Both the position numbers and the translations under genes were made by a program. From positions 2,418,001 through 2,482,000 of the forward strand of contig NZ_JAJJMO010000001.1 in the NCBI RefSeq assembly GCF_020905345.1: a DNA stretch of 64,000 nt. The letters run 5' to 3'. The DNA is from Flavobacterium pisciphilum. Lineage in GTDB: Bacteria; Bacteroidota; Bacteroidia; Flavobacteriales; Flavobacteriaceae. Shown here one piece after another: positions 1 to 6,050 of this stretch. Position 1 is the stretch's first letter. The number at the start of each line of letters is the position of its first letter. Below the pieces are notes generated by a model. That model was given only the letters and a program-made list of their open reading frames with translations. It had not been told where the DNA came from and did not search any database.

Positions 1-687
1 TGCCCAATCAAAAGTACCTGCATCGATTATTGCTCCTCCTAAAGACGTTCCATTTCCTGAAATATATTTAGTCAATGAATGAATTACAATATTTGCTCCA
101 TATTCAATCGGATTAAGTAAATAGGGAGTTGGCACTGTATTATCGACTATAAATGGCACTTTAAATGCTTTGGCTTCTGTCGAAATTGCTTTTAAATCCA
201 GTACATCTAATTTTGGATTCCCTAATGACTCTACAAAAAACACTCTGGTATTTTCCTTTGCCGCTTTGGTAAAATTTTCTGCTTTTGATGGATCTACAAA
301 TGTGGTTGTAATTCCTAATCTTGGCAAAGTAACTTTTAATAAATTATAAGTTCCTCCATATAGACTATTCGAAGCTACGATATGATCTCCTGCTTTTAGT
401 AAGGTTAACAAAGTCGTTGCAATTGCCGATGCTCCTGATGCTGTAACAACAGCTCCAATACCTCCTTCTAATGCTGCCAAACGTTGTTCTAAAACATCAT
501 TTGTTGGGTTGTTTAGTCTTGTGTATATAAAACCTGCTTCGGCAAGACTAAATAAATTGGACGCATGATCTGAGTTATTAAAAACATAAGAAGATGTTTG
601 ATAAATTGGAACAGCTCGTGTACTTCCATTTTTAGTAACGTCATGTCCTGCGTGTAGTGCGTTTGTTGCAAATTTTTGTGTGCTCAT
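1..687 (-). CDS. metY: O-acetylhomoserine aminocarboxypropyltransferase, 3' end outside window
   Basis: PLP-dependent Cys/Met metabolism family enzyme that makes homocysteine (or methionine) from O-acetylhomoserine and sulfide. The 229 visible residues start MSTQKFATNALHAGHD and include the family stretch IYTRLNNPTNDVLEQR, the glycine-rich SASAIATTLL-type cofactor region and SNSLYGGTYNLL. The PLP lysine lies in HSLTKYISGNGTS near residue 207. The frame is open to the window edge, so roughly the C-terminal half is missing. It is the second gene behind a Met/Cys-rich leader and terminator at about 960-1110, which fits feedback control by Met/Cys supply. MetY is preferred over cystathionine gamma-synthase because of the N-terminal motif set; MetZ-like enzymes remain possible. 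Confidence 0.92.
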   Translation of the reverse strand, partial: MSTQKFATNALHAGHDVTKNGSTRAVPIYQTSSYVFNNSDHASNLFSLAEAGFIYTRLNNPTNDVLEQRLAALEGGIGAVVTASGASAIATTLLTLLKAGDHIVASNSLYGGTYNLLKVTLPRLGITTTFVDPSKAENFTKAAKENTRVFFVESLGNPKLDVLDLKAISTEAKAFKVPFIVDNTVPTPYLLNPIEYGANIVIHSLTKYISGNGTSLGGAIIDAGTFDWA

Positions 688-749: not shown

Positions 750-938
750 TCATATAAAAAGATCTTCGTCTTCGTGAGCATACATTTGAAACAATAATGA
801 ATTTGATTCGCTTGAATATAATTCTCCTTTTATTTCGACTGTACCAACTCCTTTATTTTGTATTATGCTGAAATCTCTTTTGAAATATGTCTTTAATAAT
901 GACTGAATTGTTTTTGAAATTATATGTAGTGTTTTCAT
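750..938 (-). CDS. Small hypothetical protein between attenuator and metY
   Basis: A 62-codon ORF that starts 24 bases past the T-tract of the upstream attenuator terminator and ends 62 bases before metY on the same strand. The product is basic in its first half (KTYFKRDF) and acidic at the end (YAHEDEDLFI). It has no signal peptide, membrane segment or recognised motif. Its position means that any transcript escaping the attenuator must cross it, so it would share metY's regulation. I do not recognise the family. It could be a real small protein of sulfur metabolism or a chance ORF in the leader. The balanced, non-low-complexity composition favours a real gene. Confidence 0.45.
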   Translation of the reverse strand: MKTLHIISKTIQSLLKTYFKRDFSIIQNKGVGTVEIKGELYSSESNSLLFQMYAHEDEDLFI

Positions 939-961: not shown

Positions 962-998
962 AAAAAAAAGCCCTTTCGGATGGCTACCAAAAGGGCTT
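962..998 (-). terminator. Attenuator terminator in front of the metY unit
   Basis: Reading on the minus strand, a 12-bp stem (plus-strand arms 987-998 and 968-979, one G-U pair) closes a 7-base loop and is followed by eight U residues (962-969). It lies 31 bases after the leader ORF stop and before the 62-codon ORF and metY, so it can only act on the transcript entering them. The 5' arm and loop (983-993) can instead pair with the end of the leader ORF (1033-1050), giving an antiterminator. Confidence 0.85.
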
Positions 999-1029
999 AT
1001 AGTTCTAACTATAACAAAGATTTAATCTT

Positions 1030-1107
1030 TCACTTTTGGCAATAGCAAATTGGGATGCACATACGCATCATACAACACATCATCATTTTATTTGCTATTG
1101 TATTCAT
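1030..1107 (-). CDS. Met/Cys-rich leader peptide of the metY attenuator
   Basis: A 25-codon ORF whose product has 7 Met and 5 Cys residues, with the core MMMCCMMRMC at residues 8-17. It starts about 42 bases after a predicted transcription start and ends 31 bases before an intrinsic terminator. Segment 1 (1090-1100) is perfectly complementary over 11 bp to part of segment 2 (1040-1050). Segment 2 (1033-1050) can also pair with segment 3 (983-993): 7 bp, a 3-base bulge, then 4 bp. Segment 3 is also the 5' arm of the terminator. This four-segment layout is that of trp/his-type attenuation. Inference: stalling at Met or Cys codons when these amino acids are short frees segment 2 to block the terminator. 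No homologous leader is known to me by name. Confidence 0.82.
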   Translation of the reverse strand: MNTIANKMMMCCMMRMCIPICYCQK

Positions 1108-1155
1108 TTTATAAATTGTTTTGTTTGTTTTTTTAATTCTACTAATTCTATAGAG

Positions 1156-1187
1156 TAAATGTAATTACTATATTTCTAACTACCAAA
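1156..1187 (-). promoter_or_regulatory. Candidate promoter for the metY leader
   Basis: On the minus strand, TTTG (plus 1184-1187) is followed after 20 bases by TACATTTA (plus 1156-1163), a 7/8 match to the Bacteroidota -7 box TAnnTTTG. Transcription would begin near 1149, about 42 bases before the leader start codon. Confidence 0.6.
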
Positions 1188-1284
1188 TCTAAAGTTACTT
1201 TTTTACAATTATTTTTTTCTAACAGAAGAATCTCTTGTAAATACTGCCTAAACTGGGCTGCTAACTACTGATTTTTTTTTTTAA

Positions 1285-1423: not shown

Positions 1424-4270
1424 TTATATTTTAAAACTCAAACGAGCGAAACCAAATCTTCCGTTTAATCCAAATTGCGATACGGCTCTAGAATAAGCAA
1501 ATTGATTTGCATTACTTAAATCTGTACTAGGTGCTGGTGACAATGTTGGTGTTGTATTTGTAAAAGCTGGTGTTGCTGGATTATTTCTATCTGGATAAAC
1601 ATCTCCAATATTATTAACCCCAAGCGTCAGTCTTAAATGTTCGTTTACCTGATATCCGAAAGATAAATCAGTAACTAATTTGCCACTATATTCTGGGTGC
1701 TCATAAACAGAAGAGAAACCATCCAAGTTTACATCTGTTGCTCCTGGATCAGTAACTTTTCCAAAATAACTGTTTCTTAAATAAATATCCAGTTTTTTAA
1801 TACTGAAAGTTGTCATTAAGTTGGCTTTTAATTTAGGAATTGCTTCTTCTAAATAAATTCTGCTTGACTCTGGGAAAAACGAATATTTATATGGATCTCC
1901 ACCTGCATTTATAATTGATTGTGGCACATTTAATTCTCCAACTCTTTTTGTCGTATTATAACTTAAAGCAAAATCATTTCTGATTGTGAAATCTTGGATA
2001 ACATTATATTTCTGAGATATTACTAAATCAATTCCTTTCGTTTCAGAGTTAATTCCGTTTGTCCAGAAAGAAGCTCTCTCTACACCTTTTAAATCAAATG
2101 CTTGTTGAAACAATGTCAATGCATCTTTTTGTTCTGGAGAAGTTGCTCCGTTTATTTGTGCATCTGTAGGTCTTGCGTATTGCCCTGTTAGAACAACTCT
2201 ATCATCAATTCTTGTAAAGTAAGCATCTGTAGCAATTGTAATATTTGCATCTGGAATCTTAAATGTAAATCCTGTACTTATACTTTTTGAAGTTTCTGGT
2301 TTCAAGTTTTCTACACCAATACTTTTTGCAGCTTCTGAGTCATTTGTAAAATAACCTACTTGGTATGGAGAACCATTAATAAATTGTGTTGAACTGCTTT
2401 CAAAATATTTTTGTTGCAATGATGGCGCTCTAAATCCTGTTTGTCCAGAAATTCTCCAATTTATATTATCTGTAAGTTTTAAAAGAGAAGCTAGTTTAAA
2501 AGTAACAGTACTACCAAAATCTGAATAGTTCTCATAACGAGCTGCTCCATTTAAAAGCCAATCTTTAGTTACATTTAACTCTAAATCTATATAAGCGGCA
2601 CCACTTTTTCTATCTTTCTCTTTAGCATCCGAAGGTTGAAATCCTGAGAATCCTTGTGCTCCTGCCCCACGCTTGTTACCAAAAAAGTCAGTCACGATTA
2701 AAGGTGAGTTACTTGGTAAAATTCCCGAAACAACATTTCCGTTTACATCATATAAAGCATAAGACTCTACATCCCCCTGTTTTATTTTATAGTTTTCATA
2801 TCTAAACTCTCCACCAAAAGCAACATTCAATCCCTCTAGTACGTCATATTTTTTACTTAAGTCTAAATTGGTTGTACTTTGCAAGAAAGAAACTTTACCT
2901 GCATAAAAGCTATCTGCTGAGTTTGTCCCTAAAGTAGCATTGATAGTATTGTTCACATCATATTTAAAAGAGTTTGTTCCTAAGTTTGTACTAATATCTG
3001 TATCAAATCCAAATAACTGAGTAGTAACGCCCACTGCCGAAGAAAGGTCTAAAATATCAGATTGTATTTCTGGTAAAAATCCATTTGCATATACTTGTGT
3101 AAATGTTCCTGAACCATTCGGTAATCTATTAAAAGCGTACGATTTTCCGTTTCTATACGAAGCCCCTCCAAAAGAATACAATGATGTAGTTTCAGTTAGA
3201 GGGTATTTAGCATTATAATACAATTGCCCTGAAGCCAATTCTGATTGTCCTACACTCATATTATAATCACTTCTTTCTTGTCCTCTATAGTTGATCTCAT
3301 TATTAGTTACATCAAAGTTTAATGCTGTTTGCATTTGACTAATACTGTTTGCAGAAGAAATTGCTGCTTGTTGTGCTGGTGTAAAATAACCTACTTGTGG
3401 AGCGTATTGTTGCAACGAGCTAATTATCTGAGCTGAATTTGGAGTTGTATTAATGTTACTGAATAATGAATTAACATTCACCCCATTTTGAGCTGCTCTA
3501 TATTCGACAGCATTGTATGCATTAAAGATTCCGTTACTTCTAATACCAGCTCTACTTGTAGCCTGTCTGGTAACAGCACTACCTGTAACATTCAAGAAAC
3601 TTCCTTCTTTACCCAAAGATGTTCCGTAGTTCAAATCTACTTGCAAAGATTGACCATCAGTTCCTCCTTTAAAGTTATTTGACCCTGAAGAAATATTTGC
3701 ACCATACTGCACCTCTCCTGAAAGGAAATTAGCATTCTTTTTCAATACAATATTAATTACTCCTGCTATTGCATCTGAACCATATTGAGCAGCTGCTCCA
3801 TCTCTAAGAACTTCAATTCTTTCTATTGCAAATGATGGTATTGCATTTAAGTCTGTCCCTACTGAACCTCTTCCTGGTGCACCATTGATATTAACCAATG
3901 CACTTGTATGTCTTCTTTTACCATTTACAAGTATTAAAACCTGATCTGGTCCTAGTCCTCTTAATTGTGCTGGATCTATATGGTCAGTTCCATCTGCAGT
4001 TGAAGTGGGATTACTTGTAAACGATGGCGCTACATAATTTAAAATTTGAGTTACGCTAGTTTGTGGAGCTCCTTTTGTTATTTCTGAAATATTAAAAATA
4101 TCGATCGGCACTGGCACATCAGTTTTTACTCTGTTTTTACTTCTAGAACCAATTATCGTTACTTCTGATAATTCATTATTCTGTAAAGTATCTTTCTCCT
4201 TTTTATTTTCTTGAGCATAAATACCCGAAAATGTTAAAAGCCCTAAAACTAATACTACATTCTTTTTCAT
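1424..4270 (-). CDS. TonB-dependent outer-membrane receptor behind a Met-rich leader
   Basis: A 948-residue TonB-dependent receptor for energised uptake of a small nutrient across the outer membrane. It has a signal peptide (residues 1-19, ending GIYAQ), then a plug domain at about 35-180 (EVTIIGSRS, QILNYVAPSF, LRGLGPDQVLILVNGKRRH, ERIEVLRDGAAAQYGSDAIAG). The rest is a beta-barrel ending in FARLSFKI with a terminal hydrophobic residue. There is no CarboxypepD_reg domain and no SusD partner, so it resembles siderophore/cobalamin-type receptors rather than SusC. The substrate cannot be read from sequence. A leader ORF with a Met-Met-Ser-Cys-Met-Met run and a terminator precede it, so its expression is probably tied to methionine supply. 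Inference: a sulfur or methionine source, or cobalamin for methionine synthase, as cargo. Confidence 0.9.
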   Translation of the reverse strand: MKKNVVLVLGLLTFSGIYAQENKKEKDTLQNNELSEVTIIGSRSKNRVKTDVPVPIDIFNISEITKGAPQTSVTQILNYVAPSFTSNPTSTADGTDHIDPAQLRGLGPDQVLILVNGKRRHTSALVNINGAPGRGSVGTDLNAIPSFAIERIEVLRDGAAAQYGSDAIAGVINIVLKKNANFLSGEVQYGANISSGSNNFKGGTDGQSLQVDLNYGTSLGKEGSFLNVTGSAVTRQATSRAGIRSNGIFNAYNAVEYRAAQNGVNVNSLFSNINTTPNSAQIISSLQQYAPQVGYFTPAQQAAISSANSISQMQTALNFDVTNNEINYRGQERSDYNMSVGQSELASGQLYYNAKYPLTETTSLYSFGGASYRNGKSYAFNRLPNGSGTFTQVYANGFLPEIQSDILDLSSAVGVTTQLFGFDTDISTNLGTNSFKYDVNNTINATLGTNSADSFYAGKVSFLQSTTNLDLSKKYDVLEGLNVAFGGEFRYENYKIKQGDVESYALYDVNGNVVSGILPSNSPLIVTDFFGNKRGAGAQGFSGFQPSDAKEKDRKSGAAYIDLELNVTKDWLLNGAARYENYSDFGSTVTFKLASLLKLTDNINWRISGQTGFRAPSLQQKYFESSSTQFINGSPYQVGYFTNDSEAAKSIGVENLKPETSKSISTGFTFKIPDANITIATDAYFTRIDDRVVLTGQYARPTDAQINGATSPEQKDALTLFQQAFDLKGVERASFWTNGINSETKGIDLVISQKYNVIQDFTIRNDFALSYNTTKRVGELNVPQSIINAGGDPYKYSFFPESSRIYLEEAIPKLKANLMTTFSIKKLDIYLRNSYFGKVTDPGATDVNLDGFSSVYEHPEYSGKLVTDLSFGYQVNEHLRLTLGVNNIGDVYPDRNNPATPAFTNTTPTLSPAPSTDLSNANQFAYSRAVSQFGLNGRFGFARLSFKI

Positions 4271-4335: not shown

Positions 4336-4365
4336 CAAAAAAGCCCCTGCAATTTGCAGAGGCTC
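4336..4365 (-). terminator. Attenuator terminator in front of the TonB receptor
   Basis: Minus-strand hairpin with 10-bp arms (plus 4355-4364 and 4342-4351, one G-U pair), a 3-base loop and a run of six U residues. It sits between the leader ORF stop (4390) and the receptor start (4270). Plus-strand 4356-4361 and 4365-4371 can instead pair with the leader's end (4402-4407 and 4391-4398), which would break the terminator. Confidence 0.85.
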
Positions 4366-4389
4366 TATGTATATATTTTTGAAAAAAAA

Positions 4390-4458
4390 CTACAATAGTA
4401 TCTCTGCGGAATACTCCGGCATCATACAAGACATCATATTGTTTACTGTAAATTTCAT
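4390..4458 (-). CDS. Met-rich leader peptide of the TonB receptor attenuator
   Basis: A 22-codon ORF whose product carries MMSCMM at residues 8-13, followed by PEYSAEILL. It starts about 15 bases after a predicted transcription start and is followed by an intrinsic terminator. Segment 1 (4437-4442), just before the Met run, is complementary to 4392-4397. The end of the ORF (4391-4398 plus 4402-4407) can pair with 4365-4371 plus 4356-4361, which disrupts the terminator. The arrangement mirrors the metY leader 3.3 kb away. Known principle: ribosome stalling at scarce-amino-acid codons selects the antiterminator. The link to methionine here is inference. Confidence 0.75.
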   Translation of the reverse strand: MKFTVNNMMSCMMPEYSAEILL

Positions 4459-4626: not shown

Positions 4627-4635
4627 CACCCGAAT

Positions 4636-4753
4636 ACAGAGGAAAAATTTGAACTGATTGCAACCTCTTCATAATGAAAAGATTCATTATGGATGCTGAA
4701 AGATTTTCATTTCAGTATTAAAAAATGCTAAAGCAGGAATCCTCCTTTAGCAT
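4636..4753 (+). promoter_or_regulatory. SAM-II-like riboswitch with a switching hairpin upstream of metK
   Basis: Stem P1 is AGAGG (4638-4642) with CCTCT (4664-4668), enclosing ATTTGAACTGATTGCAA, which matches the conserved SAM-II loop (UGAUUUAAC..UAUUGCAA). The conserved 3' strand GCTAAAGCAGG at 4727-4737 can pair back with CTG and GC of the loop, as in the SAM-II pseudoknot. Between them are two extra hairpins (about 4669-4692 and 4695-4717). The same 3' strand is also one arm of a strong hairpin, 4725-4733 with 4745-4753 and inner 4735-4737 with 4741-4743, followed by a T-rich stretch. Binding and hairpin are therefore mutually exclusive. Which state is ON is not clear from sequence. The family is known upstream of Met/SAM genes. 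Confidence 0.8.
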
Positions 4754-4799
4754 TTCTAGCAATTATTTTTTCTCGCTTAATTTTAATTTAATAAATATT

Positions 4800-6050
4800 A
4801 TGGCTTATTTATTTACGTCAGAGTCTGTTAGCGAAGGACACCCAGACAAGGTTGCGGATCAAATCTCGGATGCATTAATTGATAACTTTTTGGCATTTGA
4901 TGCTGATTCTAAAGTAGCTTGTGAAACTTTAGTAACAACTGGACAAGTAATTTTGGCCGGTGAAGTAAAATCAAATACATATTTAGATGTACAGCAAATC
5001 GCTCGTGATGTAATCAGAAAAATTGGTTACACGAAAAGTGAATATATGTTTGAGGCAAACTCTTGCGGTATCCTATCTGCGATTCACGAACAATCTGCTG
5101 ATATCAACCAAGGTGTTGACAGAGCAAACCCTGAAGAACAAGGAGCTGGTGACCAAGGAATGATGTTTGGTTATGCAACTAATGAAACTGAAAATTATAT
5201 GCCTTTGGCACTTGATTTATCTCATAAATTATTACAAGAATTAGCTATTTTAAGACGTGAGAATAAAGAGATCACTTATTTACGTCCTGATGCTAAATCG
5301 CAAGTAACATTAGAGTACAGTGATGACAATAAGCCAACTCGTATTGATGCTATTGTAATCTCAACTCAACATGATGATTTTGATGAGGAAGCTGCAATGC
5401 TTGCTAAAATCAAAAAGGATATTATCGAAATTCTTATTCCAAGAATTATCGCTAAGAATCCAACTCATGCTCATTTATTCAACGATAAAATTCAATATCA
5501 CATTAACCCAACTGGAAAATTCGTAATTGGAGGACCTCATGGAGATACTGGATTAACTGGAAGAAAAATCATTGTAGATACTTACGGTGGTAAAGGTGCT
5601 CACGGTGGTGGTGCTTTCTCTGGAAAAGACCCAAGTAAAGTAGATAGAAGTGCTGCTTATGCTACACGTCATATTGCTAAAAACTTAGTAGCTGCTGGTA
5701 TTGCTGATGAAATCTTAGTACAAGTTTCTTATGCAATTGGAGTTGCAAAACCAATGGGTATTTTTATTGATACTTACGGAACTTCTAAAGTAAACTTAAC
5801 CAATGGTGAGATTGCTAAAAAAGTAGAAGCTATTTTTGATATGCGTCCTTACTTTATTGAGCAACGTTTAAAATTAAGAAATCCTATTTATAGTGAAACT
5901 GCTGCTTACGGACATATGGGTCGTAAACCAGAAACTGTAACTAAAACTTTTTCTGCTCCAGGAGGAAACGAAAAAACGGTTACTGTTGAGTTATTCACAT
6001 GGGAGAAACTTGATTTTGTTGATCAGGTAAAAACTGCATTTGGATTGTAA
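4800..6050 (+). CDS. metK: S-adenosylmethionine synthetase
   Basis: Makes S-adenosylmethionine from methionine and ATP in the cytosol. The 416-residue product starts [25 protein letters not shown] and has the [12 protein letters not shown] and [19 protein letters not shown] signatures of MetK, full length for the family. The open frame extends upstream to 4725, but those codons overlap the riboswitch hairpin and do not resemble MetK, so the start at 4800 is chosen. Expression is probably controlled by its end product through the SAM-II-like element. It is divergent from the TonB receptor unit and monocistronic, with a strong terminator downstream. Confidence 0.97.

Follow-up and report, generated by a model that had tools for sequence, protein, structure and literature searches.

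The classical controls of methionine genes are SAM riboswitches, T-boxes and repressors. Attenuators of the trp, his and thr type combine a leader open reading frame (ORF) carrying codons for the pathway product with alternative hairpins and an intrinsic terminator, and are placed before a biosynthetic gene. The principle of ribosome-mediated attenuation also appears in PMC1183508. In Rhodobacterales, the text of PMC8632094 describes the uORFC-8-2 motif before cysS, whose leader ORF has two Cys codons at positions 14-15. Actinobacterial cys operons are presented in the text of PMC1262725 as having Cys-codon leader peptides without obvious terminators, and methionine operons as having no conserved RNA structure. 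A 2021 report on F. psychrophilum speaks, in general terms, of 'strong clues' for attenuation by leader peptides ahead of amino-acid operons (PMC9723704), the text of a B. thetaiotaomicron study contains leader-like short ORFs with no Met or Cys detail (PMC7366714), and a term search of the text of the F. johnsoniae ribosome-profiling paper gave no matches (PMC6847099). A literature search that covered few subscription journals and no supplementary files found no methionine leader-peptide attenuator.

Here we describe two leaders, A and B, in a 64,000 nucleotide stretch of Flavobacterium pisciphilum DNA (contig NZ_JAJJMO010000001.1, 2,418,001 to 2,482,000; hereafter the window). From the sequence comparisons given below, both are probably transcription attenuators in which a translating ribosome reports the supply of charged tRNA-Met and tRNA-Cys. 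The features of leader A and its surroundings are as follows:

1184 to 1191, minus strand: possible -7 promoter box TAGATTTG of leader A, a match to the TAnnTTTG consensus only
1030 to 1107, minus strand: leader A ORF MNTIANKMMMCCMMRMCIPICYCQK, 25 codons with 7 Met and 5 Cys, of the type that the leader detector described below finds at 57 of 80 MetY loci
1090 to 1100, minus strand: segment 1 (CAATAGCAAAT), 11-bp duplex with 1040-1050, covariation
1040 to 1050, minus strand: segment 2a, partner of segment 1, predicted duplex and covariation
1033 to 1039, minus strand: antiterminator core CCAAAAG (segment 2b), partner of CUUUUGG in the terminator arm, nearly invariant and without covariation
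983 to 993, minus strand: segment 3, within the 5' arm and loop of the terminator, predicted pairing
968 to 998, minus strand: terminator hairpin (3:4) of 12 pairs with a U run at 962-969, covariation
750 to 938, minus strand: 62-aa ORF between attenuator A and metY, from ORF translation
1 to 687, minus strand: 5' part of metY, 229 of 430 codons, extending beyond the window start; the full gene scores above the TIGR01326 cut-off

The first-pass annotation of this DNA had reported the ORF, a perfect 11-bp pairing of segments 1 and 2, and a 12-bp terminator with eight U, and all three are present. Segment 1 and 1040-1050 form an unbroken 11-bp duplex with a predicted energy of -13.4 kcal/mol. 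The terminator, read from 998 to 968, has 12 pairs, six of them G-C, and is followed by eight U (969-962), two of which lie inside the stem. A pairing of segments 2 and 3 in blocks of 7 and 4 bp had also been claimed; 11 pairs in two blocks are indeed predicted between segment 2 (1033-1050) and the terminator arm and loop, but with a split of 8 and 3. The minus strand from 1140 to 955 folds at -46.3 kcal/mol, compared with -27.5 (sd 3.6) for shuffled sequences (z = -5.2). The combined Met and Cys share of leader A is equalled by only five of 2536 ORFs (18-35 codons, both strands, best 80 of 570 MetY loci), a background that includes true leaders. The observation itself is thus confirmed, and its earlier interpretation partly supported.

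The 62-aa ORF at 750-938 had no match in Pfam or NCBIfam. It has a C-terminal pattern (NSLLFQMYAHEDEDLFI) in common with that (NSLLFLMYSTENETLFI) of a 67-aa ORF located behind a second B-A pair in the window's genome (L161, G000:C1, from about 2415512 downwards), and the two may be paralogous small proteins expressed behind attenuators.

Leader B, the tandem layout of B and A and the exchange with SAM-I described below were absent from the first-pass annotation and were added by this follow-up. The features of leader B and its neighbourhood are as follows:

4390 to 4458, minus strand: leader B ORF MKFTVNNMMSCMMPEYSAEILL, from ORF translation, alignment and model matches
4437 to 4441, minus strand: segment 1 (CAAUA), 5 bp with 4393-4397, weak here, with covariation in the family
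4402 to 4409, minus strand: segment 2 core (CCGCAGAG), partner of CUCUGC at 4356-4361, covariation
4393 to 4397, minus strand: inner segment 2 (UAUUG), contested by segment 1 and the start of segment 3
4340 to 4366, minus strand: terminator hairpin of 12 pairs, then U, terminator prediction and covariation
1424 to 4270, minus strand: TonB-dependent receptor gene behind leader B, ORF and domain search
4633 to 4741, plus strand: SAM-II riboswitch of the divergent metK (ORF 4725-6050), from the Rfam scan; the metK start used by relatives would be at about 4800, against 4725 for the window ORF

The motif ATGATGNNNTGYATGATG, with up to one mismatch, has two matches in the window, which are leaders A and B, a result seen in none of 100 shuffles. 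As a search pattern it proved too strict and gave unrelated coding matches (27 of 150 genus genomes matched); one of its three matches in the window's genome (L001) has an internal stop and is no leader. Rfam scans, at gathering score and also at E values up to 1, placed no SAM riboswitch, T-box or other family over either leader, the strongest scores there being Phe_leader (E 0.49) and Ysr49 (E 0.97), both far under gathering. Elsewhere in the window the scan identified a Flavo-1 RNA (RF01705; 24463-24536, plus strand, 70.6 bits). A small hairpin of GGAA..UUCC type (4393-4425, minus strand; columns ~94-105 of alignment A1, defined below) lies between the Met/Cys codons and segment 2 of leader B; it looks conserved from folds and by eye, and may contribute to the switch.

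Conservation was assessed upstream of metY at the best 80 of 570 loci encoding a MetY relative, taken from named genomes, all 80 of which were scanned with Rfam. Leaders were identified with a detector that requires a Met/Cys-rich ORF (12-45 codons) plus a terminator. Among these best 80 of 570 loci, leaders are found in 64 and a SAM-I riboswitch in 16, at a distance of no more than about 410 bases; no locus has both and none has neither. The detector picked up type A at 57 and type B at 34 of the 80 loci, overlooking a leader A with a broken U run at L082. It gave no match on the opposite strand of the same upstream stretches (0/80) and 10 candidate matches in 461,788 strand-bases of downstream background. 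In a phylogeny of the 80 MetY proteins, the leader and SAM-I states need two changes, one of them forced by well-supported branches, so that the 64:16 split is a clear pattern but amounts to far fewer than 80 independent events.

A tandem of B and then A precedes metY at 27 of the best 80 of 570 loci; in 20 of the 27, the B terminator and the start of A are 80 bases or fewer apart. No TAnnTTTG box, which we take to be the Bacteroidota -7 promoter element, lies between B and A at any of these 27 loci, and a box is present within 120 bases upstream of B in 15 of the 34 B leaders. A single transcript thus probably runs through both leaders. In the window's clade the receptor gene lies between B and A, and A has its own TAGATTTG at 1191-1184. 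Four loci (L046, L055, L068 and L069) are without leader A and have another short Cys/Arg-rich ORF (PRRCCRMC) after leader B, behind which no terminator was detected.

To assess the pairings in the two families we used an alignment of leader B (A1, 36 rows: 33 of the 34 detector loci, L039 having been dropped, plus the window, L091 and L107, the last a partial row that ends before the terminator) and one of leader A (A2, 46 rows: 13 of the 57 detector loci dropped, mostly near-copies, and L082 and the window added). The shuffles leave the relatedness of the rows in place. For B, none of 500 shuffles reaches the covariation score of 1:2, of 2:3 or of 3:4 (36 rows), and 36 of 500 reach that of 1:2 on a weaker measure, pairs with changes on both sides. 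At columns 109, 166 and 183 the terminator arm of B changes with both of its partners, from A-U / U-A in most rows to C-G / G-C in four rows. For A, 1:2 and 3:4 covary (0/500 shuffles each, 46 rows). The 7-bp core of 2:3 is nearly invariant and shows no covariation (217 of 500 shuffles reach its score), because it hardly varies. The first-pass annotation had named covariation of 1:2 and 2:3 as a check on its claim; in leader A this is found for 1:2 but not for the 2:3 core. When segments were exchanged among A leaders, own segments paired better than swapped ones, with 0 of 2000 permutations reaching the observed value for 1:2 and 0 of 2000 for 2:3 (53 distinct rows). The 1:2 pairing is weak in 18 of the 53. 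Some lineages have a longer 2:3 pairing of GCUAUUGCCA with UGGUAAUAGC (e.g., L057 and L081). L078 has no segment-2 anchor and was left out of the duplex, permutation and frame counts, and for L015 and L021 the start codon was shifted to an inner ATG for the permutation, fold and frame counts. Competition of an antiterminator with the terminator is thus indicated in B by the covariation of 2:3, and in A by the advantage of own over swapped pairs, with a core that does not covary.

The fold predictions, in which the ribosome footprint is an assumed value, separate the two families. Segment 2 of leader A is divided between its partners: 1040-1050 goes to 1:2 and 1033-1039 to the antiterminator core, which lets both pairings form side by side in the predictions; 1:2 and 2:3 overlap by only ~3-4 bp. 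With no ribosome, 42 of 58 A leaders are predicted to form 1:2 and the antiterminator core at once, and 55 of 58 to form 2:3. In these counts 1:2 means any pairing of the first 30 bases with bases past codon 12, a looser definition than the 11-bp helix. Among B leaders without a ribosome, both pairings occur together in 3 of 35, with 1:2 in 21 and 2:3 in 17; the window's own B has a weak 1:2 of 5 bp, and 2:3 prevails. For leader A RNA that ends at the terminator loop, placing a ribosome at codons 8-14, 16 or 17 leaves the antiterminator as the predicted fold, and placing it at the stop codon leaves the terminator alone. With the terminator complete, it is the equilibrium fold throughout, even with a stalled ribosome, so the switch must depend on timing. 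According to these models, the B family fits trp logic, in which 1:2 and 2:3 are mutually exclusive. For leader A, an attenuator without trp-type exclusion is the better reading, one predicted to terminate only once the leader has been read to its end. Of the interpretation in the first-pass annotation, a conserved Met/Cys leader with a terminator and alternative pairings before metY is thus supported; its trp-type logic is supported only in part, as the A pairings are predicted to coexist in most leaders.

Two patterns favour translation of the leader ORFs. In leader A the ATG lies 41 to 98 bases from segment 2, with 12 different spacings, and 56 of 57 leaders keep one frame. In leader B, variation at the three codon positions is 0.257, 0.337 and 0.445 (31 rows), highest at the third. 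The Met/Cys codons sit directly behind segment 1 and cluster at codons 8-18 of A, and at codons 6 and 8-12 of B. The comparison of relatives supports the ORFs, their frame, the pairings, their conservation and the exchange with SAM-I.

From these patterns we infer translation in the cell, stalling, a response to Met and Cys, and read-through. A ribosome would translate the leader and, with Met and Cys plentiful, arrive at the stop codon and cover segment 2, upon which the 3:4 terminator would form and metY (behind A) or the receptor gene (behind B) would remain untranscribed. With Met or Cys in short supply, the ribosome would stall on the Met/Cys codons, segment 2 would be free to pair with the 5' arm of the terminator, and RNA polymerase would read through. 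In leader A, 1:2 could act as a pause hairpin.

We searched for further targets using covariance models of B (R1) and A (R2). R1 gave matches in 41 of the 51 Flavobacterium genomes, in 18 of 199 genomes of the family (17 of 198 genera), in 27 of 119 from the order, many of them weakly, and in 15 of 247 from the phylum, 13 of which are Flavobacterium; R2 matched 8 of 149 family genomes. The 65 R1 matches in the 51 Flavobacterium genomes were all read and lie before metY (24), metX (15), OsmC-like or ABC genes (7), receptor genes (5), cysH (2) and a metB-like gene (1), or are at a contig end (1) or plain terminators (10). Most of these matches have a Met/Cys gene behind the B leader. The ten plain terminators (L183-L185 and L190-L196), along with L215, L222 and L223, look like terminators at gene ends and were not counted as leaders. 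B-type leaders also stand before metX-thrA, cysH, cysE-cysK-like and metB-like genes. Similar leaders before cys and receptor genes, which the first-pass annotation had suggested looking for, are thus present (cysH, cysE-cysK-like, TonB receptor). At L216, the best NCBIfam models for the cysE-cysK-like genes are cysE and cysK, under their cut-offs, and the second ORF is cut; L221 is a leader before cysH in another family of the order. No leaders were found before cysH relatives at 19 loci (L239-L257; L239 is the window's genome), many of them distant (31-36% identity), which leaves four loci (L162, L163, L216 and L221) as the basis for the cys targets.

Other leaders have a different codon content. 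The second B-A pair in the window's genome is Met-poor and lies before the 67-aa ORF, SAM-I, metX and thrA. Eight B-type leaders with few Met/Cys codons and with Tyr/Phe/His/Trp codons (L124, L126, L132, L134, L172, L176, L181 and L219) lie before OsmC-like genes, some of which are followed by homoserine dehydrogenase-like or ABC transporter genes. Pfam identified OsmC in three of the four OsmC-like proteins tested, L172 being without a match. The signal sensed by these Met-poor OsmC-type leaders may differ. Six weak R2 matches in the window's genome were inspected (L143 and L145-L149), of which only L146 is a leader (G000:C1:1025773-1025918, minus strand): a Met/Cys-rich ORF MRLYSINTNIMMQCCHMKIPPCCRSCYCLYDTI and a terminator, with a Glu/Leu/Phe/Val dehydrogenase gene behind them. 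Short ORFs rich in Met and Cys, in some cases as a pair, also precede all five close orthologs seen for this dehydrogenase (86-100% identity; eight of ten matches inspected, L278 and L279 being the other two).

The leaders could instead report general translation trouble, such as a shortage of any amino acid or slow ribosomes, their Met/Cys richness being incidental or serving RNA pairing. Met-poor leaders with the same RNA frame before SAM-I-metX and OsmC-like genes, and Met/Cys leaders before a glutamate dehydrogenase gene, speak for this explanation. We nevertheless consider it unlikely. Most Met/Cys codons lie outside the paired segments, and codon content follows the target gene, Cys-rich forms preceding cys genes and Met-rich forms met genes, in small samples: Cys makes up 0.56 of the sensor codons in leaders of cys genes (n = 4), 0.30 in those of metY (n = 39) and 0.15 in those of metX/metB (n = 6), with Mann-Whitney p values of 0.004-0.017 that are uncorrected for relatedness. 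The rows for the Cys share and for the codon positions were hand-picked from the leader lists, with near-copies left out. Furthermore, SAM-I stands behind 11 of 11 scanned Met-poor metX leaders vs one of five Met-rich ones (L198), the metX leaders L133 and L220 lying outside that scan.

Met and Cys are typical copper ligands, and copper-responsive leader peptides stall ribosomes elsewhere. A Met/Cys-rich nascent peptide might accordingly bind a metal such as copper and stall the ribosome, with the receptor importing the metal or its carrier, and the position of B before a TonB receptor in the window's clade is compatible with this. We regard it as very unlikely, given that the other genes behind the leaders are sulfur amino-acid genes, that SAM-I occupies the same place at metY, and that Met and Cys vary freely in order and ratio. 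An untranslated structured RNA, e.g., an unknown riboswitch with a terminator and an accidental ORF, would account for the strong structure and covariation, and translation is itself inferred, but it is the least probable of the three, given length differences in multiples of three in 56 of 57 A leaders, the third-position variation of B, the lack of any Rfam family over the leaders even at E 0.1, and alignments with no conserved core besides the competing arms.

Several results weigh against ribosome-mediated attenuation as we propose it: the dependence of the switch on timing, the A 2:3 core without covariation, the weak 1:2 in 18 of 53 A leaders, the antiterminator predicted without a ribosome in 55 of 58 A leaders and in the window's B, the weaker measure for B 1:2, the two-change tree, and Met-poor leaders of the same family before metX (then SAM-I) and OsmC-like genes. 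With rather less than even confidence, we suggest a broader picture for Flavobacteriaceae, in which a two-lock Met/Cys circuit replaces SAM-I. B, with trp logic, and A, which would close only on a finished leader and stay open if translation fails to start, would act in series, and the same RNA frame would be reused before cys, met, receptor and other genes with fitted sensor codons. Closing only on a finished leader may be useful for methionine sensing: if true, the logic of A would resolve the paradox of attenuating on methionine, which is also the start of every leader, as severe starvation would open A. The mechanism becomes testable in Flavobacterium johnsoniae, which is tractable in the laboratory, and R1 and R2 provide two covariance models for a sulfur regulon that Rfam 15 does not recognise in this window. 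Related genera that swap a metabolite-sensing riboswitch for codon-reading leaders at metY offer a natural experiment on sensing charged tRNA versus SAM.

Compared with known systems, leaders A and B share with trp, his and thr attenuators a leader ORF with product codons, alternative hairpins, an intrinsic terminator and a place before a biosynthetic gene. They differ in that Met and Cys would be sensed, 1:2 and 2:3 of A hardly compete, two attenuators stand in series (27 loci), and the host is a member of Bacteroidota. The uORFC-8-2 motif, as described in its text, likewise has Cys codons in a leader ORF and a terminator, but its target is a tRNA synthetase, it has no Met codons and it belongs to another phylum. 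The actinobacterial leaders, on the published text, resemble those of Flavobacterium in a run of Cys codons upstream of sulfur genes; unlike them, the Flavobacterium leaders have intrinsic terminators. SAM-I (RF00162) is found at the same position upstream of metY in 16 of the best 80 of 570 loci, but is a ligand-binding aptamer without a leader ORF and is absent before metY in the 64 leader loci. The F. psychrophilum report concerns the same genus, although its text names no Met or Cys leader, and it is possible that its attenuator set (Table S7, PMC9723704) overlaps the metY leaders. Leader-peptide attenuation is thus already known; what would be new here is the sensing of Met and Cys, its occurrence in Bacteroidota, two different attenuators in series, and the exchange with a SAM riboswitch.
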